Shown piece by piece: positions 10,845-23,073 of a stretch of 25,883 nucleotides of DNA. The notes beneath the pieces were generated by a model. That model ran no database searches. It was not told the DNA's origin and saw nothing but the letters and a program-made list of their open reading frames with translations. Origin of the DNA: a virus; the IMG/VR virus record IMGVR_UViG_3300042544_002123, positions 1 through 25,883 of that record. The stretch is one strand, 5' to 3'. Position numbers and translations under genes: made by a program. The first letter of the stretch is position 1. Each line of letters begins with the position of its first letter.

Positions 10845-10918
10845 GGTGTTAGGTTAAAGTAGGGGCATAGTGGAGTATACCTCCCGATTCATCATCGTCT
10901 CGTTCATCAATTGAACAA
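10845..10918 (-). ncRNA. small RNA family copy A
   Basis: Reverse transcript from the promoter at 10921-10952. The 5' hairpin is GTTCA-ATTGA-TGAAC (10902-10916); the second is CGAT-GATGA-ATCG; then the family motif GGGAGGTATACTCC (10872-10885). There is no open reading frame of note. The 3' end is uncertain and may extend to the terminator at 10811. Function unknown. Confidence 0.7.
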
Positions 10919-10920
10919 TA

Positions 10921-10952
10921 CAAAGATAGAAAAAAGAATTGACATTTCCAAA
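10921..10952 (-). promoter_or_regulatory. promoter of small RNA copy A (reverse)
   Basis: Reverse-strand TTTG (10949-10952), N20, TATCTTTG (10921-10928). Confidence 0.83.
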
Positions 10953-10993
10953 CTTTTATACAAAAATATTTTTTAAAAATAATCAAAAATAAA

Positions 10994-11025
10994 TTTGGTA
11001 GTGTCAAATTAATTCCTTATCTTTG
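10994..11025 (+). promoter_or_regulatory. Bacteroidota-type promoter
   Basis: TTTG 10994-10997, N20, TATCTTTG 11018-11025; drives the gene at 11049. Confidence 0.85.
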
Positions 11026-11048
11026 TATTCTAATCAAATAAAATAATT

Positions 11049-11225
11049 ATGTTAGCATTACTATTAAGTGTTTTTAGCAAAAAAGAAATTACTTGTGAAA
11101 CCAATCCTCGTTGCAACTTTAGAGTTGTTTATCCATTTGAGGGGTATGAAAACTTATCTTTGGGTGAACGTTTTGATGTGATAGGACAAGGTATGATAGA
11201 AAACAAAGTCATTATGAAAAAATAA
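11049..11225 (+). CDS. hypothetical small protein, 58 aa
   Basis: It begins MLALLLSVFSKKEITCE, a short hydrophobic start too brief for a clear signal peptide, then contains CETNPRCNFRVVYPFEGYE and a GERFDVIGQGMIENK strand region. The two cysteines (about 16 and 22) could form a disulfide or bind metal. Promoter, leader and next cassette frame it exactly, which supports a real gene. No family recognised. Confidence 0.75.
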   Translation: MLALLLSVFSKKEITCETNPRCNFRVVYPFEGYENLSLGERFDVIGQGMIENKVIMKK

Positions 11226-11236
11226 TTGCAAAAAGA

Positions 11237-11268
11237 TTTGGAAAGTAGAAATACTTTCCTTACCTTTG
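11237..11268 (+). promoter_or_regulatory. promoter with GAAA hairpin in spacer
   Basis: TTTG 11237-11240, N20, TACCTTTG 11261-11268; perfect spacer palindrome GGAAAGTA-GAAA-TACTTTCC (11240-11259). Drives the gene at 11292. Confidence 0.87.
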
Positions 11269-11291
11269 TATTCTAATCAAATCAAATAACA

Positions 11292-11534
11292 ATGGCTAAC
11301 CAACATAAACTAGCACAAAGACAAATCAGTACCAATGGACACACAATAAGTGTAGGTTTAACAGGTAATATAGGTTATGTGAGTATAACTGATAATAACC
11401 TTTATCCCGATAGTGATAGTCGTACTGAAAGACGTGATTTAGGGTTTAGTTCAATGATGATACCACTAATGACGAGAGAACAGCTAAAAGATTTAAAGAC
11501 AGCTATTGATGAAGTTTTAAAAAATTCTAAATAA
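11292..11534 (+). CDS. hypothetical protein, 80 aa
   Basis: A beta-rich N-terminal part (HTISVGLTGNIGYVSITDNN), a charged loop (SDSRTERRD), then a C-terminal helix (TREQLKDLKTAIDEVLK). It is compact, soluble and single-domain in appearance. No recognised family. Monocistronic. Confidence 0.84.
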   Translation: MANQHKLAQRQISTNGHTISVGLTGNIGYVSITDNNLYPDSDSRTERRDLGFSSMMIPLMTREQLKDLKTAIDEVLKNSK

Positions 11535-11537
11535 AAA

Positions 11538-11569
11538 TTTGGAAATACCAAATCTTTTCCTTATCTTTG
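11538..11569 (+). promoter_or_regulatory. Bacteroidota-type promoter
   Basis: TTTG 11538-11541, N20, TATCTTTG 11562-11569; inverted repeat ATTTGG/CCAAAT at 11537-11553. Drives the gene at 11593. Confidence 0.85.
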
Positions 11570-11592
11570 TATTCTAATCAAATAATAAAAAT

Positions 11593-12267
11593 ATGCAAAT
11601 CATTATCAACAATCAAAAGTTTCCTTACGATATGGGTTGTCGTTTGTTGAAGTTGAAACACAAAGATTGCCCAATGGCTGAACTTGAAGATATTTGGAAC
11701 GATATTGTTCCTTTGACATTCAAAGATATTGCCAAACTACCTAATTTGGAACAACGTAGAGTAGGTGTATTATGCTTGGGGTTGGAACGACTTGCAAGTG
11801 AAGTTCAACCAAAATTATTGAGCAAAAAAACACTAAAAAAATCTACTAATTGGGTAGATGAAAACGGAAAACTTGTTACAACAAAATTCAATGATACCTA
11901 TGAACTTTACGAGGTAAGTGGTGAGTATTTTAACGAGGGGTTGCAAGGTTGGAATAAAATGGAAAATGCTTACTTTGTGAAACTGAAAGATACATCAACT
12001 GATAGAAACTATTTTATTTGGGTTGAGCCACAAAGTGTTTATAATACCAATAATGAAAATCGTTGGGAGTATGATATTAAAAAAATCAATGCTATCCAAT
12101 GTATTGCTTGGACTATCCAAACCAACGTACCACAAGGTAGCATTGAAAAGATTATCCGACAAGGTGATTGCGTATTAATCAAACCCAATGGCAAATACAA
12201 ACCTTTGGATAGTGCAAGACACTTGACTGAAAAAGAATATAAGGAACTTTTGGTTGCTGAAAGTTGA
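11593..12267 (+). CDS. hypothetical protein, 224 aa
   Basis: One of the longer products. Residues 1-80 are mixed (MQIIINNQKFPYDMGCRLLKL, then a helical DIAKLPNLEQRRVGVLCLGLERL), and 80-224 form a Trp/Tyr-rich beta-domain (TYELYEVSGEYFNEGLQGW, NYFIWVEPQSVYN). I see no catalytic motif, signal peptide or membrane segment, and no family I can name. It ends with TGA ahead of a strong terminator. Confidence 0.87.
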   Translation: MQIIINNQKFPYDMGCRLLKLKHKDCPMAELEDIWNDIVPLTFKDIAKLPNLEQRRVGVLCLGLERLASEVQPKLLSKKTLKKSTNWVDENGKLVTTKFNDTYELYEVSGEYFNEGLQGWNKMENAYFVKLKDTSTDRNYFIWVEPQSVYNTNNENRWEYDIKKINAIQCIAWTIQTNVPQGSIEKIIRQGDCVLIKPNGKYKPLDSARHLTEKEYKELLVAES

Positions 12268-12281
12268 TTGATTGATAAAAG

Positions 12282-12308
12282 GGTGGAAATTTATTTTCCA
12301 CCTTTTTT
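12282..12308 (+). terminator. intrinsic terminator
   Basis: GGTGGAAA / TTTCCACC (12282-12289 with 12295-12302), 8 bp perfect, followed by TTTTTT. This one does not overlap the next promoter. Confidence 0.9.
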
Positions 12309-12317
12309 CATAAAAAA

Positions 12318-12349
12318 TTTGGATTTTTCAAATAAATTGCTTATCTTTG
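12318..12349 (+). promoter_or_regulatory. Bacteroidota-type promoter
   Basis: TTTG 12318-12321, N20, TATCTTTG 12342-12349; drives the gene at 12375. Confidence 0.85.
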
Positions 12350-12374
12350 TATCATAATTAAAAAATCATATCAA

Positions 12375-12641
12375 ATGAAACGTAACGTAAAAAAACAAAC
12401 ACTATTGAAAGGTGAGGGTGCAAACCAACATACCTTGTATGGCGAATTTGCCATTGAAAAAGAAACTACCGACTTTGCTGACCTTGTTGTAAAAAAGGAT
12501 AGCTTATTGAAACACGAAATGCCCAATGGTTCTTGGAGTAACGAACATCAAACCCTTGCAGTTGAAAAGGGTAATTGGGTAATGGGTAAACAAGTTGAGT
12601 ACAATCCATTTGACCAAAAAATTAGTCAAATTTGGGACTAA
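12375..12641 (+). CDS. conserved hypothetical protein, 88 aa
   Basis: A basic start (KRNVKKQTLLKGEGANQHTLYGEF) followed by a C-terminal block (SNEHQTLAVEKGNWVMGKQVEYNPF) whose dense pattern of Gly, Asn, Trp and Val looks strongly conserved. I recall a similar small protein in mobile elements, without function. Beta-rich, no cysteines or membrane segment. Confidence 0.85.
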   Translation: MKRNVKKQTLLKGEGANQHTLYGEFAIEKETTDFADLVVKKDSLLKHEMPNGSWSNEHQTLAVEKGNWVMGKQVEYNPFDQKISQIWD

Positions 12642-12656
12642 AAAAATGAAAAAAGA

Positions 12657-12688
12657 TTTGGAAAAGTGAAAACTTTTCCTTATCTTTG
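12657..12688 (+). promoter_or_regulatory. promoter with GAAA hairpin in spacer
   Basis: TTTG 12657-12660, N20, TATCTTTG 12681-12688; perfect palindrome GGAAAAGT-GAAA-ACTTTTCC (12660-12679). Drives the gene at 12712. Confidence 0.88.
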
Positions 12689-12711
12689 TATCATAATCAA
12701 ATCAATCAATT

Positions 12712-13107
12712 ATGGCAAATCCAATGATACATTCAAAATCCAGCGTTAAGCGTTGGGGTGGAAAAGTAGAAGATTATTTAGCTATCCACGAACTTATTGA
12801 TAGTCCAAAAGCTACAATGAACAACAATTCAGCAAGGTTATTAACACATAATACTTGGTTTGCATACACTATCATTCCAAAGATTTTTGGGTATAATATA
12901 ATCAATTCCGATGGCAGAAGTGTTGATAGTGTTGATATTGCTATGCTACATATAGCAGAAGATTTTAGAATGAAATTTGTACCAACACCACAAGATTATT
13001 TGAAGCACGTTGTAGTTCAACCCTGGTTTAACAATGCAGTAAAAAACATTGACAATCCCGAAGCAGAACAAACTGCAAAAGAATTTTTAGAAAAAATTAG
13101 CCAATAA
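12712..13107 (+). CDS. DUF6915-like protein, 131 aa
   Basis: The N-terminus (MANPMIHSKSSVKRWGGKVEDYLAIHELIDSPKA) with HS..S.KR.GGK.EDYL.IH, then LLTHNTWFAYTIIPKIFG, NSDGRSVDSVDIAMLHIAEDF and a C-terminal PTPQDYLKHVVVQPWF, follow block by block a family I know as DUF6915, common in phages and plasmids. The conserved His residues (H7, H26, about H45, about H84) suggest a metal site. Function is not established. Confidence 0.9.
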   Translation: MANPMIHSKSSVKRWGGKVEDYLAIHELIDSPKATMNNNSARLLTHNTWFAYTIIPKIFGYNIINSDGRSVDSVDIAMLHIAEDFRMKFVPTPQDYLKHVVVQPWFNNAVKNIDNPEAEQTAKEFLEKISQ

Positions 13108-13139
13108 TTTGGTAATCTCAATTTAATTACTTATCTTTG
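13108..13139 (+). promoter_or_regulatory. Bacteroidota-type promoter
   Basis: TTTG 13108-13111 directly after the previous stop, N20, TATCTTTG 13132-13139; drives the gene at 13165. Confidence 0.85.
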
Positions 13140-13164
13140 TATCATAATCAAAAATCATAAACAA

Positions 13165-13794
13165 ATGGCAGAAAATATTATCAAAATTTGGAAAGAAAAA
13201 AACATTGACCACGTTAATTTTAATTTTAGTTGTGGTGGTGATAGTATGAATGACACAAGTATTGAAATCTTTGACAAAGAGGGTGAGTTGGTACAAGATA
13301 GTGAACTTGAAACATACTTTGATGACAAAACCTACAACAACGTAGAGTTTTATGTAAATTCTGACGGACATTATCAAGGTGAGTTTGGAGTGGTAACTAT
13401 TGAGTTTGATGAAGATGAAAACGATTTTACCTACTCAAAATCTTCATCAAGTGAATGGAGTGAAAGTTCAGTAAACGAAGCTGAAATTGAACTTACTGAT
13501 GAAGAAGCTAAATTTGTGGCTGACTATGTACTGAATATCAATGGTGGTGAAGATGATATACAAACCAATTACAAAAAGGACTTTATCCTTACCAACGAGC
13601 AAGAAGAAACTTTGAAAGGGTTGGAAGAAAAAATATCCGAATTTGCCCAAGATTATACACCGAATGATGTTAAGGGTGAAATAAATGAGTGGCATACCTA
13701 TACTACAAATGAAGAGGGTGAAGAGTTGAAACTTGTAGATAACGTACTTACGTTAAGTATAACCAAGAGTTTTGATGTTATCAAAGAAGATTAA
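13165..13794 (+). CDS. strongly acidic hypothetical protein, 209 aa
   Basis: By my count it has about 54 Asp/Glu against 15 Lys and no Arg. The acidic residues are spread throughout, with dense runs such as FDEDENDF, ELTDEEAKF and NEEGEEL. Predicted beta strands alternate with acidic turns; there is no membrane segment. Size and charge resemble DNA-mimic or inhibitor proteins that phages use against host nucleases or restriction enzymes, but no sequence family is recognised, so this is inference. Monocistronic. Confidence 0.87.
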   Translation: MAENIIKIWKEKNIDHVNFNFSCGGDSMNDTSIEIFDKEGELVQDSELETYFDDKTYNNVEFYVNSDGHYQGEFGVVTIEFDEDENDFTYSKSSSSEWSESSVNEAEIELTDEEAKFVADYVLNINGGEDDIQTNYKKDFILTNEQEETLKGLEEKISEFAQDYTPNDVKGEINEWHTYTTNEEGEELKLVDNVLTLSITKSFDVIKED

Positions 13795-13811
13795 AAATAA
13801 ACGAAAAAAGA

Positions 13812-13843
13812 TTTGGAAAAGTGAAAACTTTTCCTTATCTTTG
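13812..13843 (+). promoter_or_regulatory. promoter with GAAA hairpin in spacer
   Basis: TTTG 13812-13815, N20, TATCTTTG 13836-13843; perfect palindrome at 13815-13834. Drives the gene at 13868. Confidence 0.88.
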
Positions 13844-13867
13844 TATTATTAATCAAAACAATCAACC

Positions 13868-14188
13868 ATGGCAAAAATTAGTAAAAAGTATCTAGAATTA
13901 GAACCTAATCCAAGAGCAACACATTTAAAAGTTGAAGTATATTATGACAAAGGTGGTGCAAATTATTTTACAGGTGGCGTTGAATCTAGAGGTATCAAAT
14001 TATCTGTGTCGCCAGTTAGTAGAACAGAAAATTCTGAAAGTTATGCAGCTTTTAGTGGCTTTAAAAAGCATTTAAAAGATATGGCAAGGTTCAGTCAAAA
14101 GGCTTGTGATAACTTTGTAGTAGATGCAAACGAAGAAAAAACTTTAATTGATGCAGTCCTAATACAAAACGGAATTAAAATAAAATAA
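13868..14188 (+). CDS. hypothetical protein, 106 aa
   Basis: A basic start (KISKKYLELEPNPRATHLKVEVYYDKGG) leads to YFTGGVESRGIKLSVSPVSR, a beta-rich middle with a Gly turn, and a helical C-terminal half (FSGFKKHLKDMARFSQKACDNF). No metal or catalytic motif, no membrane segment. I do not recognise the family. Monocistronic. Confidence 0.85.
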   Translation: MAKISKKYLELEPNPRATHLKVEVYYDKGGANYFTGGVESRGIKLSVSPVSRTENSESYAAFSGFKKHLKDMARFSQKACDNFVVDANEEKTLIDAVLIQNGIKIK

Positions 14189-14201
14189 ATTTGAAAAAAG
14201 A

Positions 14202-14233
14202 TTTGGAAAGTAGAAATACTTTCCTTATCTTTG
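14202..14233 (+). promoter_or_regulatory. promoter with GAAA hairpin in spacer
   Basis: TTTG 14202-14205, N20, TATCTTTG 14226-14233; perfect palindrome GGAAAGTA-GAAA-TACTTTCC (14205-14224). Drives the small gene at 14258. Confidence 0.87.
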
Positions 14234-14257
14234 TATTCTAATCAAATAATAAAAACG

Positions 14258-14359
14258 ATGAAAGTAATATCAGAAGTTATTTTAATGTGTTGTATTGCAT
14301 TGACATTAGTAAGTCTTATAGTTTACAATGTGATTGTGCATGGTATTCACAACTTTTAG
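14258..14359 (+). CDS. small membrane peptide, 33 aa
   Basis: Almost the whole product is one transmembrane helix (EVILMCCIALTLVSLIVYNVIV), with a single Lys near the N-terminus and a short HGIHNF tail. It has a dedicated promoter and a following terminator, so it is likely translated despite its size. A holin-like, antiholin or exclusion role is possible; none can be shown. Confidence 0.7.
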   Translation: MKVISEVILMCCIALTLVSLIVYNVIVHGIHNF

Positions 14360-14367
14360 ATTGATTG

Positions 14368-14408
14368 AAAAAAAGTGGCATTATTATTTGGTAATGTCAT
14401 TTTTTTTT
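14368..14408 (+). terminator. intrinsic terminator with promoter -33 box in its loop
   Basis: A-run and GTGGCATTA pair with TAATGTCAT and the T-run (14368-14383 with 14392-14407, two G-U pairs). The loop TTATTTGG carries TTTG. Confidence 0.88.
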
Positions 14409-14418
14409 CTTATCTTTG
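14387..14418 (+). promoter_or_regulatory. promoter embedded in terminator
   Basis: TTTG 14387-14390, N20, TATCTTTG 14411-14418; drives the genes at 14442 and 14546. Confidence 0.86.
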
Positions 14419-14441
14419 TACCATAATCAAATCAAACAATC

Positions 14442-14534
14442 ATGAAAAAAGTAACAATACAACAATGGGCAAATATTTTGAAGGTATTAGCAATCTTAGG
14501 TACTATTGCAATCATTTATTCAGTAACATTTTAA
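14442..14534 (+). CDS. small membrane peptide, 30 aa
   Basis: A charged start (MKKVTIQQWANI) is followed by one hydrophobic helix (LKVLAILGTIAIIYSVTF) that runs to the C-terminus. It is first in a two-gene unit with the gene at 14546 (11-nt gap, no promoter between). It follows another single-helix peptide gene, and the two together may form a membrane-active pair. Function unknown. Confidence 0.68.
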   Translation: MKKVTIQQWANILKVLAILGTIAIIYSVTF

Positions 14535-14545
14535 TCTAATCAATC

Positions 14546-14938
14546 ATGACAAAAGAGCAACAATTAGAACATCGTTTAGCCATGGTAGCTGACGATTTAA
14601 AAGTAATCAGAAAATTCATCGCACAACGAGGTTTAACCGAGGCATTCCAAATGCGTTCATCAACATCAGATGAAGCCTTTACGAACCTTAACAACATCGA
14701 AATAGCCTGTGATTTAACAAGCAATGAATCTTTGACTTGGGGTTTTTATAACTATGAAGAAGTGAATGAAATCATCAAGAAACTGAAAGCTATTGATATT
14801 GATGGAGAGAGAATGCAGTATATCCTTGAAAAGGTTGGTATGAGTGACCAAATGCACCGCCAACTTATAATGACAAAAACAATTGCAGATACTGAACTTT
14901 TATTAGAAGAAAAATCAAGTATGTTTGACAAAAAATAA
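14546..14938 (+). CDS. hypothetical helical protein, 130 aa
   Basis: Predicted almost entirely helical: KEQQLEHRLAMVADDLKVIRKFIAQRG, then YNYEEVNEIIKKLKAIDIDG and a C-terminal TIADTELLLEEK. It is soluble and charged. It is the second gene of an operon with the 30-residue membrane peptide, so it could partner it. No family recognised. Confidence 0.85.
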   Translation: MTKEQQLEHRLAMVADDLKVIRKFIAQRGLTEAFQMRSSTSDEAFTNLNNIEIACDLTSNESLTWGFYNYEEVNEIIKKLKAIDIDGERMQYILEKVGMSDQMHRQLIMTKTIADTELLLEEKSSMFDKK

Positions 14939-14949
14939 TTGAAAAAAGA

Positions 14950-14981
14950 TTTGGAATTGTGAAAACTTTTCCTTATCTTTG
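14950..14981 (+). promoter_or_regulatory. promoter with imperfect hairpin
   Basis: TTTG 14950-14953, N20, TATCTTTG 14974-14981; spacer GGAATTGT-GAAA-ACTTTTCC is only partly complementary. Drives the gene at 15004. Confidence 0.86.
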
Positions 14982-15003
14982 TATTCTAATCAAATCAAAT
15001 ATC

Positions 15004-15264
15004 ATGACAACAGTAGGAAAACTAATCGAATTACTAAGTGCTTACCCTAAAGATATGGTAATCACAAACGAACAAAATCAGCCATTTATCCACATGGTTA
15101 ATGGAAGTGAAGAAAGTGTAATTTTATCAACAACAAAACCCATTGGATATTGTAATCGTAGTGGTGAATATGTTTACCCATCAGTTGTTGAGGGCTATTC
15201 AGCTTATAGCCCCGAATTAGATGAAGACCTTTACGATATAGAGTGGACACCATTAGAAAAATAA
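15004..15264 (+). CDS. conserved phage protein MTTVGKLIELL, 86 aa
   Basis: ATG 15004 is preferred because the longer frame begins in the promoter. The blocks TVGKLIELLSAYPKDM, VITNEQNQPFIHMVN, TTKPIGYCNRSGEYVYPSV and YSPELDEDLYDIE form a pattern I associate with a conserved family of phages in Bacteroidota and others. A single domain, acidic at the C-terminus. Function unknown. Confidence 0.88.
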   Translation: MTTVGKLIELLSAYPKDMVITNEQNQPFIHMVNGSEESVILSTTKPIGYCNRSGEYVYPSVVEGYSAYSPELDEDLYDIEWTPLEK

Positions 15265-15275
15265 TTGAAAAAAGA

Positions 15276-15307
15276 TTTGGAAAAGTCATTTATTTTCCTT
15301 ATCTTTG
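15276..15307 (+). promoter_or_regulatory. Bacteroidota-type promoter
   Basis: TTTG 15276-15279, N20, TATCTTTG 15300-15307; a weak GGAAAA/TTTTCC repeat in the spacer. Drives the gene at 15333. Confidence 0.86.
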
Positions 15308-15332
15308 TATCATAATCAAATCAAATAACATT

Positions 15333-15608
15333 ATGCAATTTATTAGCAAAGTAGCCGCAGTTGAGCTTATCAACCAATCCAAAGGTAAAATCTTCACCGC
15401 TGAATTCAGAAAGAAAGACAACACCACACGAGTAATGAATTGCCGTTTGGGTGTAACCAAAGGTGTAACAGGTAGTGGTATGGCTTACAATCCAAGTCTT
15501 AAGGGGTTAAAGCCAGTGTATGATATGCAAGTCAAAGAATGGCGAATGATTAACCTTGACACTATTACAAGGCTAACAATCAAAGGTGAAAATTATCTTG
15601 TACACTAA
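15333..15608 (+). CDS. WYL_2-like (Sm/SH3 beta-barrel) protein, 91 aa
   Basis: ATG 15333 is the first start after the promoter. The sequence reads as a small beta-barrel: GKIFTAEFRKKDNTTRVMNCRLGVTKGVTGSGMAY, then YDMQVKEWRMINLDTITRLTIKGENY. The MNCRxGVxKGVxGxGMAY block and the NLDTI block are what I know from the WYL_2 (Sm-like SH3 barrel) proteins of phages. Likely a nucleic-acid or ligand-binding module; the role is not established. Confidence 0.87.
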   Translation: MQFISKVAAVELINQSKGKIFTAEFRKKDNTTRVMNCRLGVTKGVTGSGMAYNPSLKGLKPVYDMQVKEWRMINLDTITRLTIKGENYLVH

Positions 15609-15626
15609 AAAATAATTGAAAAAAGA

Positions 15627-16302: not shown

Positions 16303-16848
16303 ATGGAAAAATTTGAAATTGTATCGGGAACACTTGTTTGTTCCGACCCTTGCTACTCAATTCCGACTTGGTGTCAAGGTATCGTAGAAAACGTAAAGAA
16401 AGGCACTTGGGTTGCTGACGTTGAAGAAGATGAATCTTGGGGTCGTAGAATAGCTGAATTACGTATTAACCACGTAAATCATTTTCTATCGGGTAAGTTT
16501 GAAGAAATGCCTTTTAGTGCTGGGGTTGATAGTGGGCAATTTGGCTTCTTTGACAAAGAGTTTTATCGTAATGATGAGAAAGCAAAAGAGTTAAAAAAAC
16601 ACAATTTTGGTGATGATTACGATACGGAAGAAGGTGATGAGTGGTATCGTGCTTGTGCTGATATTACCTTGGCTGATGAACAATGGGGTGTATTACCTAA
16701 TGGTGTTGTATCTTCATCGGGTTTTGGAGATGGCTCTTATCGGGTATTTGGGCAAAAAGATAGCAATGGTGAGTATGTGGCATTCCAAGTAGTTTTTATC
16801 GAAGCAGAAGAAGATGAAGATGAAGATGAATGGGGTGAAGATGAATAA
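16303..16848 (+). CDS. DUF4241-like protein, 181 aa
   Basis: The early motif SGTLVCSDPCYSIPTWC (residues 8-24) and the later AGVDSGQFGFFDKEFY (about 74-89) are features I know from DUF4241-type and related proteins of phages and bacteria. The Cys and Asp residues near the start may form a binding site. The C-terminus is an acidic tail (EDEDEDEWGEDE). No membrane segment. Function unestablished; the family assignment is tentative. Confidence 0.85.
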   Translation: MEKFEIVSGTLVCSDPCYSIPTWCQGIVENVKKGTWVADVEEDESWGRRIAELRINHVNHFLSGKFEEMPFSAGVDSGQFGFFDKEFYRNDEKAKELKKHNFGDDYDTEEGDEWYRACADITLADEQWGVLPNGVVSSSGFGDGSYRVFGQKDSNGEYVAFQVVFIEAEEDEDEDEWGEDE

Positions 16849-18414: not shown

Positions 18415-18430
18415 TTGATTGATTAAAATT

Positions 18431-18455: not shown

Positions 18456-18456
18456 A

Positions 18457-18488: not shown

Positions 18489-18515
18489 TATCCTAATCAA
18501 TTAAACATTATAGTT

Positions 18516-18728
18516 ATGAAAAAAGAAACCCTAGAACGATTATTAAACAATGCTTGTGAATTGCTTATTATTTTTGAAGATAGCAATTCTGCTACACAAG
18601 AAGATAAAGATAAGATAGACGCTATCTTTAATGAGATAAAATACGCTGATAGTATTGACGATGAAATTAGAATGAGTGCTGATGATGAGGTGCAAGACTT
18701 TGATACCTTTGGGGAGCATAAAATTTAA
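18516..18728 (+). CDS. hypothetical acidic helical protein, 70 aa
   Basis: Predicted mostly helical and acidic: KKETLERLLNNACELLIIFED, then EDKDKIDAIFNEIKYADSIDDEIR and an Asp-rich end. ATG 18516 chosen as first start after the promoter. No family recognised. Confidence 0.82.
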   Translation: MKKETLERLLNNACELLIIFEDSNSATQEDKDKIDAIFNEIKYADSIDDEIRMSADDEVQDFDTFGEHKI

Positions 18729-18739
18729 TTAAAAAAAGA

Positions 18740-18771
18740 TTTGGAGAATTGAAAAATTCTCCTTATCTTTG
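18740..18771 (+). promoter_or_regulatory. promoter with GAAA hairpin in spacer
   Basis: TTTG 18740-18743, N20, TATCTTTG 18764-18771; perfect palindrome GGAGAATT-GAAA-AATTCTCC (18743-18762), a compensated variant. Drives the gene at 18794. Confidence 0.87.
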
Positions 18772-18793
18772 TATTCTAATAAATTAAAATACT

Positions 18794-18943
18794 ATGTTAG
18801 AAAAATCAATCAAAGAATTAGCAAAGCAACTTATCGAAATCAAGTACCTAGTCAAAGTACAAAGCATTGATATGGAAGATGGTTCGGGACGTTGCTTCAA
18901 CGTTGTTCACAAAGATGGAACAAAAAAGTTTTATAGATTGTAA
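18794..18943 (+). CDS. hypothetical small protein, 49 aa
   Basis: It reads MLEKSIKELAKQLIEIKYLV, a helix, then a beta-like DGSGRCFNVVHKDGTKKFYRL. It is framed by promoter cassettes on both sides and uses neighbour-like codons. The overlapping frame from 18867 is a shadow. No family recognised. Confidence 0.75.
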   Translation: MLEKSIKELAKQLIEIKYLVKVQSIDMEDGSGRCFNVVHKDGTKKFYRL

Positions 18944-18960
18944 AAATAATTGTAAAAAGA

Positions 18961-18992
18961 TTTGGAGAATTGAAAAATTCTCCTTATCTTTG
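18961..18992 (+). promoter_or_regulatory. promoter with GAAA hairpin in spacer
   Basis: TTTG 18961-18964, N20, TATCTTTG 18985-18992; perfect palindrome GGAGAATT-GAAA-AATTCTCC (18964-18983). Drives the gene at 19013. Confidence 0.87.
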
Positions 18993-19012
18993 TATCCTAA
19001 TCAAATAACATT

Positions 19013-19225
19013 ATGCAAAACATATCCAAAGAAGATTACGTTATCTTTAATAAAACAACAAAAAAAAGTATTGATTCCTATGATATAGTGTATCATTACA
19101 CGAGCATTGTAGAACTTATCAACAATGGTTTTAAGTTAAAACCTAATGAAGAAATCGTGTGTGTTGCTGAGTTATCTATTGAGGAACAAATGAAACACTC
19201 GGAAGCCATAGAAAATTGCAAATAA
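19013..19225 (+). CDS. hypothetical protein, 70 aa
   Basis: A small alpha/beta protein: basic N-terminal third (SKEDYVIFNKTTKKSIDSYD), then a VYHYTSIVELINNGFKLKPNEEIV segment and a helical ELSIEEQMKHSEAIENCK tail. Just after the stop another frame reads NLFEQELEKEYAKG to a stop at 19279-19281, possibly a gene remnant. A bidirectional terminator lies at 19317-19347. Confidence 0.8.
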   Translation: MQNISKEDYVIFNKTTKKSIDSYDIVYHYTSIVELINNGFKLKPNEEIVCVAELSIEEQMKHSEAIENCK

Positions 19226-19316
19226 ATTTGGATACCAACCTATTCGAGCAAGAACTTGAAAAGGAGTATGCTAAAGGATAACCCCTATATACACAATTGC
19301 GTACATAACCTATACC

Positions 19317-19347
19317 AAAAAAGGCTAGATTAACTCTAGCCTTTTTT
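19317..19347. terminator. bidirectional intrinsic terminator
   Basis: GGCTAGA / TCTAGCC (19323-19329 with 19335-19341), flanked by A-run and T-run, so it can stop the forward gene and the reverse tRNA-like gene. Confidence 0.9.
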
Positions 19348-19348
19348 G

Positions 19349-19419
19349 TGTCAAGGACAGGATTCGAACCTGTACATTTAGAGCAACGCCCTTTGTGTTT
19401 ACCGTTTCACCACCTTGAC
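19349..19419 (-). tRNA. tRNA or tRNA-like gene with aberrant anticodon arm
   Basis: Reverse strand. The acceptor stem GTCAAGG/CCTTGAC (7 bp, then A as discriminator), U8, a D-arm GTG..CAC with GG in the loop, and a T-arm ACAGG-TTCGAAT-CCTGT are all correct. The anticodon region does not fold normally: the best pairing is AGGGC-GTT-GCTCT with a 3-nt loop. Placing a 7-nt loop gives GTT (Asn) or TTG (Gln) as anticodon, with no U before it. CCA is not encoded. It has its own promoter (19424-19455) and terminator. It may be a divergent tRNA or a tRNA mimic. Confidence 0.78.
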
Positions 19420-19423
19420 AATA

Positions 19424-19455
19424 CAAAGATACAAAAAATAAATGGGGAAACCAAA
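19424..19455 (-). promoter_or_regulatory. promoter of the tRNA-like gene, embedded in a terminator
   Basis: Reverse-strand TTTG (19452-19455), N20, TATCTTTG (19424-19431). The TTTG sits in the loop of the terminator of the preceding gene. Confidence 0.85.
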
Positions 19456-19464
19456 TGTTTCCCC
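19444..19464 (-). terminator. intrinsic terminator of the 19472 gene
   Basis: Reverse strand GGGGAAAC-ATTTG-GTTTCCCC, 8 bp perfect, followed by ATTTATTTTTTG. Its loop provides the next -33 box. Confidence 0.85.
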
Positions 19465-19471
19465 AAGTTTT

Positions 19472-19702
19472 TTAATTATAATCCATGATGTCAAAGCTGT
19501 GTGTATCTTGGTAAACACGTTCGATTTTAATACTATAGATTTTAATACATCTATTGTATTCTTCTTCTGATTTGCAAGGGAAGTCACAAGTGTTTAAATT
19601 GCCTGTTTTAACCACCATGCGAACCATGTCATAGCTTTCAATAAAGCCTTTGGATTCTGCTTGGAATAATTCTGCGTCTGTTTTGAATGTGAAGTTGTAC
19701 AT
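19472..19702 (-). CDS. hypothetical protein, 76 aa
   Basis: A strand-helix start (MYNFTFKTDAELFQAESKGFIESYDMVRMVVKTG-type) followed by a DFPCKSEEEYNRCIKIYSIKIERVYQD region with two cysteines and an acidic end. It has its own reverse promoter and a terminator that also serves the tRNA-like gene. No family recognised. Confidence 0.83.
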   Translation of the reverse strand: MYNFTFKTDAELFQAESKGFIESYDMVRMVVKTGNLNTCDFPCKSEEEYNRCIKIYSIKIERVYQDTHSFDIMDYN

Positions 19703-19721
19703 ATTGATTGATTTTATAAAG

Positions 19722-19753
19722 CAAAGATAAGAATAATAAATGACACTACCAAA
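19722..19753 (-). promoter_or_regulatory. Bacteroidota-type promoter (reverse)
   Basis: Reverse-strand TTTG (19750-19753), N20, TATCTTTG (19722-19729); drives the 19472 gene. Confidence 0.85.
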
Positions 19754-19779
19754 TTTATTTTAAAAAAGTTTTGTTTAGG

Positions 19780-19839
19780 ATAAAAACCAGGTTGGAGTAT
19801 ACTTGAGGGTCGTTATGACCGCTATGTTATTTGAACATT
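19780..19839 (-). ncRNA. small RNA family copy B (divergent)
   Basis: Reverse transcript. The 5' hairpin is ATGTT-CAAAT-AACAT, the second hairpin GGTC-ATAAC-GACC (19808-19820), then AAGTATACTCC (motif at 19794-19803) and AACCTGG before TTTTTA. In this copy the left arm GGAG is replaced by TCAAG, so the third hairpin cannot form, while RGTATACTCC is kept. Confidence 0.65.
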
Positions 19840-19840
19840 A

Positions 19841-19872
19841 CAAAGATAAGAATAAAAAATGAGACCACCAAA
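19841..19872 (-). promoter_or_regulatory. promoter of small RNA copy B (reverse)
   Basis: Reverse-strand TTTG (19869-19872), N20, TATCTTTG (19841-19848). Confidence 0.85.
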
Positions 19873-19913
19873 TTTATTTTCAATTATTTTTAAAAAATAT
19901 TTTTATCAAAATA

Positions 19914-19945
19914 TTTGGAATTGTCGATTTTTATTCTCATCTTTG
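19914..19945 (+). promoter_or_regulatory. Bacteroidota-type promoter
   Basis: TTTG 19914-19917, N20, CATCTTTG 19938-19945; drives the gene at 19978. Confidence 0.78.
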
Positions 19946-19977
19946 TATTATTAATCAATCATTAAAACAAATAAATT

Positions 19978-20274
19978 ATGACACAATTTGAACAAGCCCA
20001 AGAACAAGTTCGTGAGGGCAAACTACAAACACCTTCAGTAAGCAATGGTGGTAAACAAATTGATTACTTTGGTTATCAGTTAGCCGTACATCGTTTTAAC
20101 CTTAAAATTATGGCAAGTGGTATGACTTGTAGAGGGGTTAAATTTAGCGATATCAAACGCTATTATGGTTTGAAAGGTCGTTCTGCTTCTGACTGCCTAC
20201 CACAATTTGAAAAGATTTTAGCTGACTATAAAGCCGAGTTGGACAAGCCAAGTATCGAAGAAATATTAAGTTAA
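19978..20274 (+). CDS. conserved hypothetical protein, 98 aa
   Basis: Helical start (QFEQAQEQVREGKLQTPSVSNGGKQ), then IDYFGYQLAVHRFNLKIMASGMTCRGVKFSDIKRYYGLKGRSA, in which the LKIMASGMTCRG..F.DIKRYYGLKGRSA block looks strongly conserved and basic, as in a nucleic-acid-binding domain. The C-terminus is helical (LPQFEKILADYKAEL). I recall relatives in phages of Bacteroidota, without function. Confidence 0.87.
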   Translation: MTQFEQAQEQVREGKLQTPSVSNGGKQIDYFGYQLAVHRFNLKIMASGMTCRGVKFSDIKRYYGLKGRSASDCLPQFEKILADYKAELDKPSIEEILS

Positions 20275-20291
20275 AAATAAATGAAAAAAGA

Positions 20292-20323
20292 TTTGGAATT
20301 GTGAAAACAATTCCTTATCTTTG
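20292..20323 (+). promoter_or_regulatory. promoter of small RNA copy C, with GAAA hairpin
   Basis: TTTG 20292-20295, N20, TATCTTTG 20316-20323; perfect palindrome GGAATTGT-GAAA-ACAATTCC (20295-20314). Confidence 0.87.
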
Positions 20324-20326
20324 TCT

Positions 20327-20406
20327 TGTTATCAAATGATAACGGGACGTTGTTGAAACGGGAGGTATACTCCGACCAGGCCTATAAACCATGCATGTTT
20401 TTTTTT
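20327..20406 (+). ncRNA. small RNA family copy C
   Basis: The 5' hairpin is GTTATC-AAAT-GATAAC (20328-20343), the second CGTT-GTTGA-AACG (20348-20360), the third GGAG-GTATA-CTCC (20361-20373), then GACC and a 3' part ending in a run of nine T's (20398-20406). No ORF. Nearly identical to copy E over the first 50 nt. Confidence 0.75.
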
Positions 20407-20414
20407 AAAATAAA

Positions 20415-20446
20415 TTTGGATAATTCAAATTAATTGTTTATCTTTG
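20415..20446 (+). promoter_or_regulatory. Bacteroidota-type promoter
   Basis: TTTG 20415-20418, N20, TATCTTTG 20439-20446; drives the gene at 20475. Confidence 0.85.
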
Positions 20447-20474
20447 TTTTATTAATCAATCAAAATAATTCAAT

Positions 20475-20897
20475 ATGTCACACGTTATTTCTTCTTCTGC
20501 ACTTTATGAGGTAATCAATCGTAAAGCTAATAACAATGGTTCTGATTTTACTATCAAGTCGATTAAGACTGGCAAGGACTATACCTATAAGATATCTCGT
20601 AGCGAGTACAATGGTGTTTGGTATACACACGTTAAGGTTGAGGTTGAATATCAAAATTTTGTTCGTTTAGGTACATATTTTAATGGCTGTATTCGACACA
20701 AGGGTAATGTAGTTGATTCACCTTCTGCTATGGCTATTGCTTATGTTTTGGGCAAAGCTGAAACCAAAAATTTTGGTCTTTTGGATAGCTTGGTTGAAGT
20801 TATGCATACAGGCAATTGTTTGGTATGTGGTAAAACACTCACAGATGCCAAATCTATTGAGTTTGGACTCGGACCAATATGTAGAGGTGGTTATTAA
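20475..20897 (+). CDS. DUF6011-like zinc-binding protein, 140 aa
   Basis: The C-terminal motif H111-TGN-C115-LV-C118-GKTLTDAKSIEFGLGPI-C136 is the signature I know from DUF6011 (CxxCgrxLtdpxSixxGxGPxC), a small treble-clef-like zinc site found in many phage and plasmid proteins. The N-terminal 100 residues are a beta-rich domain (GSDFTIKSIKTGKDYTYKISRSEYNGVWYTHVKVE), possibly nucleic-acid binding. Exact function unknown. A terminator follows. Confidence 0.88.
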   Translation: MSHVISSSALYEVINRKANNNGSDFTIKSIKTGKDYTYKISRSEYNGVWYTHVKVEVEYQNFVRLGTYFNGCIRHKGNVVDSPSAMAIAYVLGKAETKNFGLLDSLVEVMHTGNCLVCGKTLTDAKSIEFGLGPICRGGY

Positions 20898-20910
20898 ATT
20901 AAACACGTTA

Positions 20911-20940
20911 AAATACCCTTAAAAATAAGGGTATTTATTC
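20911..20940. terminator. probable terminator
   Basis: AAATACCCTT / AAGGGTATTT (20911-20920 with 20927-20936), 10 bp perfect; followed by ATTCT forward. Convergent small RNA copy D ends on its other side. Confidence 0.65.
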
Positions 20941-20944
20941 TAAA

Positions 20945-21011
20945 AAAAATATGGGGTAGGTTGGAGTATACCTCCCGACTCTTACAAGCCGTCACGTTCA
21001 TCAACTGAACA
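20945..21011 (-). ncRNA. small RNA family copy D
   Basis: Reverse transcript: 5' hairpin GTTCA-GTTGA-TGAAC (20996-21010), second hairpin GAC..CTT/AAG..GTC (20977-20993), then GGGAGGTATACTCC (20963-20976), AACCTACCCC and ATTTTTTTT. The second stem differs in sequence from the other copies but still pairs. Confidence 0.72.
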
Positions 21012-21014
21012 ATA

Positions 21015-21046
21015 CAAAGATAAGAATAAAAAATGACACTACCAAA
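21015..21046 (-). promoter_or_regulatory. promoter of small RNA copy D (reverse)
   Basis: Reverse-strand TTTG (21043-21046), N20, TATCTTTG (21015-21022). Confidence 0.85.
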
Positions 21047-21087
21047 TTTATTTTGGATTATTTTTAAAAAATATTTTTTAAAATAAA

Positions 21088-21119
21088 TTTGGATAATTAA
21101 ATAAAATTGCTTATCTTTG
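21088..21119 (+). promoter_or_regulatory. Bacteroidota-type promoter
   Basis: TTTG 21088-21091, N20, TATCTTTG 21112-21119; drives the gene at 21147. Confidence 0.85.
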
Positions 21120-21146
21120 TTTTATTAATCAATCAAAAAAAATACA

Positions 21147-21455
21147 ATGAGAACAATTACAAAAAAAGCAGTAGTAAAATTTTTAAACGCTGAACCCTTT
21201 AATAGTGGTAATACAAGTGTTAAAATATTTCCCAATGTTAGTGTTTTGGTGCTATTTGGCAACGAAATAGCATACAAGTATAACAACCCCGAAAAAACCT
21301 TAGCTATCACAACTTGTGGGTATAAAACCAACACAACAAAAGAACGCTTAAACGCTTTGCCTAATGTACATATACAAGTTAAAAAAGGTGTTTGGTATCT
21401 TAATAGCTTAGAATGGGACGGCAAACTTACTGACGAATTTTTAATAAATGATTAA
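21147..21455 (+). CDS. hypothetical protein, 102 aa
   Basis: Begins with a basic helix (ITKKAVVKFLNAEPFNSGNTSV), then beta strands (VSVLVLFGNEIAYKYNN, TLAITTCGYKTNTTKERLNAL, VHIQVKKGVWYLN) and an acidic C-terminus. Repeated lengths of strand with Gly/Asn turns suggest a small beta-domain. I recall similar proteins in mobile elements of Bacteroidota but no function. Confidence 0.86.
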   Translation: MRTITKKAVVKFLNAEPFNSGNTSVKIFPNVSVLVLFGNEIAYKYNNPEKTLAITTCGYKTNTTKERLNALPNVHIQVKKGVWYLNSLEWDGKLTDEFLIND

Positions 21456-21472
21456 AAATAAATGAAAAAAGA

Positions 21473-21504
21473 TTTGGAATTGTGAAAACTTTTCCTTATC
21501 TTTG
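21473..21504 (+). promoter_or_regulatory. promoter with imperfect hairpin
   Basis: TTTG 21473-21476, N20, TATCTTTG 21497-21504; GGAATTGT-GAAA-ACTTTTCC, partly complementary. Drives the gene at 21536. Confidence 0.86.
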
Positions 21505-21535
21505 TCTTATTAATCAATCAAAAATCAATACAATC

Positions 21536-21868
21536 ATGGCAAAAGCAATCAACTTTGAAAACATTACACTACGTTCTGAAATATCTTCTCGTGGTGGTGG
21601 TGTAGAAATTAGCTTGGACACACTAGGCTTTAAAAATGAAAAAATGTCTGCATACCAAAACTACTTGGGTGGTGGACTATTAGGTAGGGTACAAGCCAAC
21701 AACACAATACAAGCCTATAATAAGCCTTGTACCGATAAGCAAAAAGCTAAATTGGACAACATAGCCGAACAACTAAAAAAATACTTCCACAGCCTTACAA
21801 ACCCCGATACTGAATGGGAGGGACAAACATACGAAAAAAATCAAAATATGCCTACAAGTGCATACTAA
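21536..21868 (+). CDS. hypothetical protein, 110 aa
   Basis: ATG 21536 is the first start after the leader. The first half is beta-like with a Gly-rich loop (SSRGGGVEISLDTLGF, YLGGGLLGRVQANN), the second helical (KQKAKLDNIAEQLKKYFHSL) with a polar tail. No recognised family. It precedes a strong terminator. Confidence 0.85.
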   Translation: MAKAINFENITLRSEISSRGGGVEISLDTLGFKNEKMSAYQNYLGGGLLGRVQANNTIQAYNKPCTDKQKAKLDNIAEQLKKYFHSLTNPDTEWEGQTYEKNQNMPTSAY

Positions 21869-21887
21869 AAAATGTTGATAACTTTAT

Positions 21888-21920
21888 AAAAAAAGGCTTG
21901 GATAATTCAAGCCTTTTTTT
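21888..21920 (+). terminator. strong intrinsic terminator overlapping promoter
   Basis: A 13-bp perfect stem A7-GGCTTG / CAAGCC-T7 (21888-21900 with 21908-21920), loop GATAATT. Confidence 0.92.
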
Positions 21921-21928
21921 TATCTTTG
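21897..21928 (+). promoter_or_regulatory. promoter with CTTG at -33, in terminator stem
   Basis: CTTG 21897-21900 replaces TTTG, N20, TATCTTTG 21921-21928; drives the gene at 21950. The altered base pairs with G in the terminator stem. Confidence 0.78.
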
Positions 21929-21949
21929 TCTTATCAAAACAACAAGACA

Positions 21950-22117
21950 ATGAAAGCTTTTACTATCAAAATTAGCAAAGAACAAATTATCAAAATGAAT
22001 AAAGCCTCTAATAGACAAGCTTCTATTGACGCTAAAATTCCTAACTTCAGTCACAAGGTACACAAAACAAAAAAAGACTACAACAGACAAACCTCAAAAA
22101 AAGTTATGTTTGATTAA
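21950..22117 (+). CDS. hypothetical basic protein, 55 aa
   Basis: ATG 21950 is preferred over a TTG frame start inside the promoter. Highly Lys-rich (KISKEQIIKMNKASNRQAS, HKVHKTKKDYNRQTSKK). It may bind nucleic acid; no family recognised. Confidence 0.78.
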   Translation: MKAFTIKISKEQIIKMNKASNRQASIDAKIPNFSHKVHKTKKDYNRQTSKKVMFD

Positions 22118-22123
22118 AATAAA

Positions 22124-22155
22124 TTTGGAAAGTTCAATTTTTATTCTTATCTTTG
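22124..22155 (+). promoter_or_regulatory. Bacteroidota-type promoter (duplicated copy 1)
   Basis: TTTG 22124-22127, N20, TATCTTTG 22148-22155; drives the peptide gene at 22185. Confidence 0.84.
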
Positions 22156-22184
22156 TATCATTAATCAATCAAAAATCAATCAAA

Positions 22185-22256
22185 ATGAAAGAACTTATCA
22201 TTCTCAAAGTAATCCTTTTAGCAATAACTATTTTATGCGTATTCATTTTTATTTAA
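22185..22256 (+). CDS. tiny membrane peptide, 23 aa
   Basis: MKELIILKVILLAITILCVFIFI: nearly all hydrophobic, one predicted transmembrane helix with two charged residues near the start. Promoter and leader are intact and duplicated before the next gene, supporting expression. Role unknown; small phage membrane peptides can be holin-like or block superinfection. Confidence 0.6.
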   Translation: MKELIILKVILLAITILCVFIFI

Positions 22257-22263
22257 AAATAAA

Positions 22264-22295
22264 TTTGGAAAATTCAATTTTTATTCTTATCTTTG
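22264..22295 (+). promoter_or_regulatory. Bacteroidota-type promoter (duplicated copy 2)
   Basis: TTTG 22264-22267, N20, TATCTTTG 22288-22295; drives the gene at 22325. Confidence 0.84.
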
Positions 22296-22324
22296 TATCA
22301 TTAATCAATCAAAAATCAATCAAA

Positions 22325-22450
22325 ATGAAAGCAATCTTCTCAACACTAAACCAAGCTCGTAAAGAAATTCCTTCAGAATTTTATGGTGGTATCGTTTTTT
22401 TAACAACCTTATCAATGTTATTCTATATCTCAATGTGGTTATTCAACTAA
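22325..22450 (+). CDS. small membrane protein, 41 aa
   Basis: ATG 22325 is the real start; the longer in-frame reading begins inside the previous gene. An amphipathic start (KAIFSTLNQARKEIPSEFYG) is followed by one transmembrane helix (GIVFLTTLSMLFYISMWLF). Second in a row of tiny membrane or secreted products; no family recognised. Confidence 0.7.
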   Translation: MKAIFSTLNQARKEIPSEFYGGIVFLTTLSMLFYISMWLFN

Positions 22451-22468
22451 AAAATAATTAAAAAAAGA

Positions 22469-22500
22469 TTTGGAAAAGTCAATTCTTTTCCTTATCTTTG
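22469..22500 (+). promoter_or_regulatory. promoter with spacer hairpin
   Basis: TTTG 22469-22472, N20, TATCTTTG 22493-22500; GGAAAAG/CTTTTCC in the spacer. Drives the gene at 22530. Confidence 0.87.
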
Positions 22501-22529
22501 TCTTATTAATCAATTAAAAATAAATAATT

Positions 22530-22691
22530 ATGAAAAAGTACCTTGTAATCGTTATCTTATTAGTAGCCTTTGTATGCAATGCCAATGCACTTGATATCAA
22601 TGGCAAACATCATCACAAAAAATGCAAAGGGTGGGGCAAAGCAATGATGAAACCAAAACATAATTGGAAAAACTACGTAAAACATCGTTAA
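22530..22691 (+). CDS. secreted His/Lys-rich peptide, 53 aa
   Basis: Residues 1-20 are a clear Sec signal peptide (KK, hydrophobic core, cleavage after ANA at 18-20). The predicted mature peptide of 33 residues begins LDINGKHHHKKCKGWG, with a His/Lys cluster, one Cys, and a basic tail. It would be exported to the periplasm. It could bind metal or act on the envelope; this is inference. Own promoter, monocistronic. Confidence 0.78.
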   Translation: MKKYLVIVILLVAFVCNANALDINGKHHHKKCKGWGKAMMKPKHNWKNYVKHR

Positions 22692-22708
22692 AAATAAATG
22701 AAAAAAGA

Positions 22709-22740
22709 TTTGGAAAAGTGAAAACTTTTCCTTATCTTTG
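22709..22740 (+). promoter_or_regulatory. promoter with GAAA hairpin in spacer
   Basis: TTTG 22709-22712, N20, TATCTTTG 22733-22740; perfect palindrome 22712-22731. Drives the gene at 22769. Confidence 0.88.
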
Positions 22741-22768
22741 TTTTATTAATAATTTAAAACATATACCA

Positions 22769-22933
22769 ATGGAATTAATTAAAGAACAAATTGAAGCCTT
22801 GAAAGAAACTCATGAAAAAATAAGAAGTATTCTTATTGATTATGGTAGTGAAGAATTTGGGGATTGCATCATTGATGAAATTTGTGTTGCAGTAGGAATA
22901 CCACCAACAAGTGTTTATTACGATGAAAAATAA
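22769..22933 (+). CDS. hypothetical protein, 54 aa
   Basis: ATG 22769 is the first after the leader; the longer frame crosses the promoter. Helical (KEQIEALKETHEKIRSILIDYG), with CIIDEICVAVGIPPTSVYYDE at the end containing two cysteines and an acidic tail. No family recognised. Confidence 0.78.
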   Translation: MELIKEQIEALKETHEKIRSILIDYGSEEFGDCIIDEICVAVGIPPTSVYYDEK

Positions 22934-22944
22934 TCATAAAAAGA

Positions 22945-22976
22945 TTTGGAAAAGTGAAAACTTTTCCTTATCTTTG
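22945..22976 (+). promoter_or_regulatory. promoter of small RNA copy E, with GAAA hairpin
   Basis: TTTG 22945-22948, N20, TATCTTTG 22969-22976; perfect palindrome GGAAAAGT-GAAA-ACTTTTCC in the spacer. Confidence 0.87.
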
Positions 22977-22979
22977 TCT

Positions 22980-23073
22980 TGTTATCAATTGATAACGGGA
23001 CGTTGTTGAAACGGGAGGTATACTCCGACCTACACTATATTCTAACTTATCAACAATCCATATGTGGATAATT
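22980..23073 (+). ncRNA. small RNA family copy E
   Basis: The 5' hairpin is GTTATC-AATT-GATAAC (22981-22996), the second CGTT-GTTGA-AACG (23001-23013), then GGAG-GTATA-CTCC (23014-23026) and GACCTACAC. The 3' end is uncertain; ATCCA/TGGAT (about 23057-23070) may close it. No ORF. Confidence 0.7.

Follow-up and report, generated by a model that had tools for sequence, protein, structure and literature searches.

What are the five short, similar stretches that recur, each behind a promoter of its own, in the viral record IMGVR_UViG_3300042544_002123? The record comprises 25,883 bases, densely packed with small genes, and was analysed at its full length (hereafter, the window). A first-pass annotation had proposed that the stretches are copies of a small RNA with two hairpins and a near-invariant core, belonging to no known family. 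The analysis supports their assignment to a predicted family of small structured RNAs in promoter cassettes: helices covary, promoters are linked to the elements, T runs lie downstream, no coding frame is kept and no Rfam family matched the stretches searched.

Five promoter-linked copies in one window

All five copies were recovered where the annotation had placed them (Table 1) by a covariance model, R1. Among the relatives used to build this model are exact duplicates of four of the window copies, so these four score highly by construction; the diverged copy 2 lies outside the model and matches only weakly. In every case (5/5) the model match begins 4 nucleotides (nt) after a strict promoter, TTTG-N19-21-TANNTTTG, in line with the claim that each copy lies just 3′ of a Bacteroidota promoter. 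Such promoters are common in the window (57, against 1.3 in Markov shuffles), but an identical 4-nt spacing five times over is not chance.

Hairpins 1 and 2 could be drawn for all five copies, on identical-sequence copies in related contigs. The copies at 20328 and 22981 have the same hairpin-2 arms, so the window alone provides four independent examples of hairpin 2. In copy 2, CTCAA replaces GGGAG ahead of the core, and hairpin 1 (ATGTT/AACAT) starts at 19838, 2 nt ahead of the model match. The sequence following the hairpins had been described as near-invariant, which holds in part. GGAGGTATACTCC is exact in four of the five copies, but the fifth (19794-19806, minus strand) has TCAAGTATACTCC, with 3 mismatches; RACC follows the core in four, but the copy at 10853-10916 has ACTA. 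GGAGGTATACTCCRACC, called near-invariant, is the local form of a wider family core.

Pairing was assessed in an alignment of 26 window-class sequences, using shuffles that, here and below, ignore relatedness among members. Across hairpins 1-3, 81.5% of cells pair, compared with 73.8% in shuffles and 29-45% when the alignment is slid. Double-change cells number 34 (shuffles, 15.2; slid controls, 3-10), and none of 500 shuffles reaches the covariation score. Double changes occur in 3/4 pairs of hairpin 1 and 5/6 pairs of hairpin 2, supporting for these two helices of the window class the covariation that had been claimed.

A wider family with a conserved core

Pattern scans of IMG/VR returned 39 stretches for GGAGGTATACTCCRAC, 78 for GTATACTCCRACCTRC, 29 for GTGTACTCCRACCTRC and at least 120 for GTAGACTCCRACCTRC; judged by context, many of these exact matches look like chance. 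Membership was restricted to matches with a −7 box at 22-72 nt, which gave 190 distinct copies over all loci, a few of which may be chance matches. Removing 5 copies that lack a purine after the core left 185, and removing near-duplicates left 127. The core is GTAGA in 105 of the 190 members, GTATA in 68, GTGTA in 14 and GTGGA in 3. The family consensus consists of a purine run, GU(A/G)(U/G)ACUCC, R, 3 variable nt and YRC; UUAUAU and a U run often come next. Some members have a tail of another type, RNCACGU. At loci L448, L451, L443 and others it stands in place of RACCURC; some of these tails could fold a CACGU-CCAU-ACGUG hairpin, and several copies head toward a convergent gene.

A second class has the layout GGG-Y-[hairpin 2]-R-RAGA-core. 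When parsed by a fixed rule (last GGG), the Y-R closing pair of hairpin 2 is kept in 47/49 non-redundant sequences (C-G 32, U-A 14, U-G 1), compared with a mean of 36.5 and a maximum of 41 in 1000 shuffles. The excess persists with all tails included (66/83; shuffles 52.1, maximum 60) and with the first GGG (40/53; shuffles 31.6, maximum 36). Among 37 hand-picked rows of similar length the pair is C-G in 24 and U-A in 13, without exception, and in an alternative parse that chooses the GGG with the longest stem it is kept in 47/47.

Over the whole family, a hairpin 2 of at least 5 base pairs is found in 81/127 members (shuffles 55.0, maximum 71). A T run lies 3′ of the core, counted 8-32 nt after CTCC, in 54/127 non-redundant members, against 8.3 in shuffles. 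For hairpin 1, the single-sequence stem test across the family was not significant (78/127 against 67.7, shuffle maximum 81), and the helices did not emerge cleanly from an unsupervised scan for covarying columns across the 185 members, whose classes are mixed. Hairpin 3 (GGAG/GAG:CUCC) shows no double change in either class and no excess over shuffles among the 127 members; its invariant letters speak neither for nor against it. An alternative terminal helix, pairing the purine run and GUAUA with UAUAYUUU, can be drawn in many copies, is weak or absent in others, and was not confirmed by eye in the GUGUA and GUAGA variants. A GG:CC pairing between the linker and RACC, spotted by eye, was dropped because several copies contradict it. 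At loci L445, L446, L443 and L444, hairpin-2 loops are often GAGA (GNRA-type) or contain ACAA.

Promoter linkage extends beyond the window. In six multicopy contigs, a strict promoter lies within 100 nt of 34/50 core sites, compared with 111/2200 random positions, and a relaxed pattern finds one at 43/50 of the same sites. The −7 box is present in 86/127 distinct contexts from the GTAGACTCCRACCTRC and GTGTACTCCRACCTRC scans.

No consistent reading frame runs through the wider family, in agreement with the claim that the copies contain no open reading frame (ORF). The core can be read as V-(Y/D)-S-(N/D)-L, but this frame is interrupted in 73/127 members, and an ATG reads through the core in only 14/127; the coding candidate was therefore rejected. 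That the elements are short coding sequences, or alternatively DNA sites, as the partly palindromic form that the core can take (GAGTATACTC) might suggest, is scarcely credible: compensatory changes and the fixed placement behind promoters also argue against it.

Distribution among phages

With R1, 34/38 phage records match at an E-value (E) of at most 0.1, with up to 7 copies each. With a second model, R2, 26/32 records match at E ≤0.01, the maxima being 12 matches in a 39,928-base contig, 9 in a 52,764-base contig and 9 each in two larger, seemingly closely related contigs with the same scores. Each model includes rows taken from a number of the searched records, so part of these matches arise by construction; of the 12 in the 39.9-kilobase (kb) contig, one is a model row. 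R2 matched nothing in six records: two belong to the window class, a third has a short-form copy, another is the 642-kb phage LR756502, and the last two had been picked via an exact 16-mer without a promoter. Within one phage, hairpins and tail mostly differ between copies and the core is constant; a few pairs are identical RNAs. In L343 (near 5821), L094 (near 8249-8283) and L056 (near 8020-8173), two copies lie within ~150 nt in face-to-face or back-to-back orientation.

The family is found in phages of very different kinds, many of which appear to infect Bacteroidota. Tenacibaculum phage Larrie, an isolate of 77,515 bases assigned to genus Cbastvirus by its record and a siphovirus by morphology (PMC10013915, in part), carries two intergenic copies, at 18767-18842 and 19395-19474. 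Their R1 E-values are 0.034 and 0.10, and their R2 E-values are 1.6e-12 (by construction) and 3.6e-6 (not by construction). The uncultured phages LR756502 (642 kb) and LR745206 (635 kb) have one copy each; that of LR745206 carries TTAGACTCC in place of GTAGACTCC and has an R2 E of 3.4e-5. Apart from these two, records bearing the family reach 362 kb. A relative of the window phage, an 86,858-base contig, encodes matches to T4-like gp23 and gp20. When 50,697 named phage records were searched with blastn, Larrie, LR756502 and LR745206 were the sole carriers recognised among five rows inspected from the best 40 of 88 and the best 40 of 70 records, so further diverged copies may exist. Chryseobacterium phage MA9V-1 gave no R1 match.

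One stretch was seen outside the Bacteroidota phages, in Pasteurella phage Pmp14 (OR544131.1, near 40127-40149; L454, 128-180). It is intergenic, lies behind a promoter that looks sigma-70-like by eye, and reads GAGTTA-GCAA-TAACTC followed by GGAG-GAAA-CUCC-AACCUGCUUAUA, with the order of parts as in the family and another loop. Its blastn E is 0.6 and its fold z-score −2.8, and no other record in the phage collection has it; it is either a chance likeness or a distant analogue.

The small size and the promoters of the elements invite comparison with RNA anti-CRISPRs, which are likewise small, promoter-driven phage RNAs. The elements might accordingly be decoys of defence RNAs (mimics of CRISPR repeats), or else guide scaffolds of a phage nuclease, but we consider this distinctly improbable. 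By eye, no fixed position holds a hypervariable guide segment, and a distribution over so many phages would be easier to explain by a factor that their hosts share than by a defence system of patchy occurrence. From RNA anti-CRISPRs and solitary repeat units the family is set apart by its broad distribution and high copy number.

Near-absence from bacterial genomes and from Rfam

In the bacterial genome contigs searched, the exact 19-letter class-I core had no match. GTAGACTCCRACCTRC was found in 1/395 Bacteroidota genomes, as what looks like a genuine copy on a contig of 27,453 bases that is phage-like by gene style only, and GTATACTCCRACCTRC in 1/397 genomes of one family, as a match without a promoter. 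R1 found no match in seven named Bacteroidota genomes, in each of which 150 of 307-1013 candidates were scored, and a single query of a plasmid collection found none. In the collections searched, the family is thus nearly restricted to phages.

The annotation had claimed no known family for the elements, and the covariance-model and Rfam searches gave many phage relatives and no Rfam match on the stretches searched. Against the window, Rfam 15 at curated thresholds reported only a transfer RNA (tRNA) at 19349-19419; at E ≤1 two short stretches gave no match, and at E ≤10 no match followed an element in seven loci. No description of this RNA was found in the literature, including the portions covered of PMC10013915, PMC8040213, PMC2864571 and PMC11697453, though it could still appear as a row in a supplementary table. 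Structured Bacteroidota RNAs such as 6S-flavo, Flavo-1, Bacteroid-trp and others have been described (Weinberg 2010; PMC2864571, in part); the phage elements are likewise predicted structured RNAs and differ in lacking an Rfam match on the stretches searched. They are classed here as a new family of predicted multicopy small RNAs, and possibly constitute a new functional class.

A conserved core held by variable helices, in many copies, might also be expected of an aptamer sponge, in which the core binds a small molecule, for instance a defence-system nucleotide signal, and so takes it out of action. We judge this improbable, and the stretches searched matched no Rfam riboswitch.

Action on a neighbouring gene or by base pairing

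The elements might be cis-acting, as terminators, antiterminators or leader switches on their own transcript; a leader would stand in front of a gene that lacks its own promoter. In the window, every copy precedes a convergent gene or a gene with its own promoter (leader placement, 0/5). Across the family, by a loose criterion, 147/199 copies lack an ORF start that falls both within 150 nt and ahead of the next promoter. The genes nearby also vary: the commonest neighbour, a 95-residue family, is within 700 nt in only 16/91 loci, and a phage gene family of ~290 residues is found in 9/91 loci (L257, L266, L271, L273, L275, L277, L283, L308 and L345), 86-228 nt from the element. A precedent for a cis role is the put RNA of HK022, a cis-acting antiterminator with two hairpins near an early phage promoter; the placement of the window copies, described above, sets them apart from it. 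The T run found in 54/127 members, and the 52/199 copies that do have an ORF start in leader position, would suit such a role, but overall we regard a cis-acting element as quite unlikely. Action in trans is favoured because the leader test failed for 147/199 copies and because the neighbours vary.

Acting in trans, the elements could be base-pairing small RNAs (sRNAs) in which core and tail pair, as a seed, with one or a few messenger RNAs (mRNAs) of host or phage and prevent their translation, as FopS does; this we consider rather unlikely. Size class, promoter type and multicopy habit are like those of FopS (PMC11697453, in part), and the core is C-rich. FopS and GibS of Bacteroides are multicopy paralogous sRNAs of ~65-70 nt with sigma-ABfr promoters that block translation initiation, and the FopS sequence was also found in a phage (PMC11697453, in part). 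Of the RNAs described so far, FopS is the closest analogue in lifestyle: it agrees in copy number and in promoter type, the length of the phage RNA being a prediction, and this likeness alone does not confer FopS membership. As described in the portion of that source covered here, FopS conserves a 5′ seed, there termed R1, and resides in Bacteroidaceae chromosomes, whereas the phage RNAs vary at the 5′ end, conserve the 3′ part and are almost never found in bacterial genomes.

The core also varies, in the four forms counted above, where a single target could not follow. Since the pattern searches read both strands, the 395 and 397 genomes contain no full complement of the 16-nt cores, and hence no host gene with one, beyond the two matches, a result that covers full complements and is not a search of mRNA targets.

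Two links to 23S ribosomal RNA were tried and rejected. The core resembles 23S helix 71 (TTCCGACCTGCACGA) with a score of 5.3, compared with a 95% shuffle value of 5.96, and in a larger set with 2.8 against 6.1, so this mimicry was taken as coincidence. Counter to the rejection, one of the five loci, L168, has an antisense 23S stretch with a score of 13.0, where shuffles give a 95% value of 6.1 and a maximum of 28.1; with a shorter matrix its score is 13.5 (95% value 11.3). In L131 this stretch reaches 4.8, and in the other three loci it is outside the best two. Antisense pairing to another 23S stretch, of marginal significance, was rejected: it reaches −24.3 kcal/mol in Flavobacterium (shuffles, 5% −23.3 and 1% −25.3) and −25.2 kcal/mol for one variant in Bacteroides. 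This best complement mismatches an invariant A, its site differs in 2/4 Bacteroidota loci, and the GUAUA form pairs best elsewhere.

Features of the window

The coordinates of the copies, their promoters and further features are given in Table 1. Across the window (1-25883), most small genes seemingly have a host-type promoter of their own.

Table 1. Elements, promoters and other features of the window
Feature	Position	Strand	Basis	Parts and remarks
Promoter of copy 1, Bacteroidota-type	10921-10952	-	sequence pattern	
Copy 1	10853-10916	-	R1 51.2 bits (by construction)	hairpin 1 GTTCA/TGAAC, linker, hairpin 2 CGAT/ATCG, GGAG, core GTATACTCC at 10872-10880, variant tail ACTATGCC
Promoter of copy 2	19841-19872	-	sequence pattern	
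Copy 2, diverged	19775-19838 (model span 19775-19836)	-	R1 11.7 bits, E 0.61; outside model	hairpin 1 ATGTT/AACAT from 19838, hairpin 2 GGTC/GACC, core GTATACTCC at 19794-19802, tail AACCTGG
Promoter of copy 3	20292-20323	+	sequence pattern	
Copy 3	20328-20392	+	R1 57.7 bits (by construction)	hairpin 1 GTTATC/GATAAC, hairpin 2 CGTT/AACG, GGAG, core GTATACTCC at 20365-20373, tail GACCAGG
Promoter of copy 4	21015-21046	-	sequence pattern	
Copy 4	20944-21010	-	R1 64.9 bits (by construction)	hairpin 1 GTTCA/TGAAC, hairpin 2 with GTAA loop, GGAG, core GTATACTCC at 20963-20971, tail AACCTACCCCATATTTTTTTT
Promoter of copy 5	22945-22976	+	sequence pattern	
Copy 5	22981-23045	+	R1 71.5 bits (by construction)	hairpin 1 GTTATC/GATAAC, hairpin 2 CGTT/AACG, GGAG, core GTATACTCC at 23018-23026, tail GACCTACACTATATT
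tRNA-like stretch	19349-19419	-	Rfam tRNA, 49.1 bits; not called by ARAGORN	directly 3′ of its own promoter
ORF resembling an HNH-type endonuclease	7106-7768	-	by eye; no Pfam match	
ORF resembling an HNH-type endonuclease	23945-24568	-	by eye; no Pfam match	
DUF6011	20475-20897		Pfam	
DUF4241	16303-16848		Pfam	
DUF1281_C/Api92-like	4607-5155		Pfam, sub-threshold	

A possible role in infection

Taking these results together, we tentatively favour the view that the elements are stand-alone genes for early, trans-acting structured RNAs that bind a factor common to many Bacteroidota hosts. Host RNA polymerase would initiate at the housekeeping-type Bacteroidota promoter and produce an RNA of perhaps 60-110 nt. 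In this RNA a short 5′ hairpin would be followed by a second hairpin, which stays paired as its sequence changes, then by the conserved element, from the purine run to YRC, on display, and by a U-rich end. The element may bind a shared host factor, either an RNA-binding protein or the translation or transcription machinery. The RNA would then act in trans, early in infection, as an inhibitor or decoy, and the number of gene copies (1 to 12) would set the dose.

Several observations weigh against this view or limit its reach. The −7 box is absent from 41/127 distinct contexts of the two pattern scans, and several box-less loci (e.g. L301, L313, L346 and L347) are member-like by structure, so the promoter is not universal. 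Box-less matches were excluded from the member set, which the R2 scores indicate was too strict: of five records picked via such a match, L080 and L318 have no R2 match, and L305, L346 and L347 match with E-values of 0.00125, 7.8e-7 and 2.2e-12. The invariance of the core is partly an artefact of the exact patterns used to find members. Some of the 52/199 copies whose ORF start falls in leader position, by the criterion given above, may be leaders. Finally, Flavobacterium phage immuto, a relative by its capsid protein, has no copy at ≤2 mismatches; its one weak R1 match (E 0.45) lies in apparent coding sequence. As a separate observation, loci L301, L313, L346 and L347 may use another promoter type.

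Proceeding from the view of early, trans-acting RNAs, a broader proposal, which we hold to be possible but doubtful, is that of a widespread host-takeover RNA, kept and multiplied up to 12-fold in phages from the 77-kb Larrie to those of >600 kb, that inhibits or captures a core factor of the host phylum. To our knowledge, few non-coding RNAs encoded by phages have been described, and next to none of them is shared by unrelated phages; Bacteroidota are also known for unusual promoters and translation signals. That a predicted multicopy RNA without an Rfam match occurs in a T4-like phage contig, in a siphovirus and in 600-kb phages, and hardly at all in the bacterial genomes searched, points to a shared weak spot of the Bacteroidota. 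With two copies in the isolate Larrie, the predicted RNA is open to experiment now, and if it does serve host takeover, it would represent a new functional class of phage RNA.

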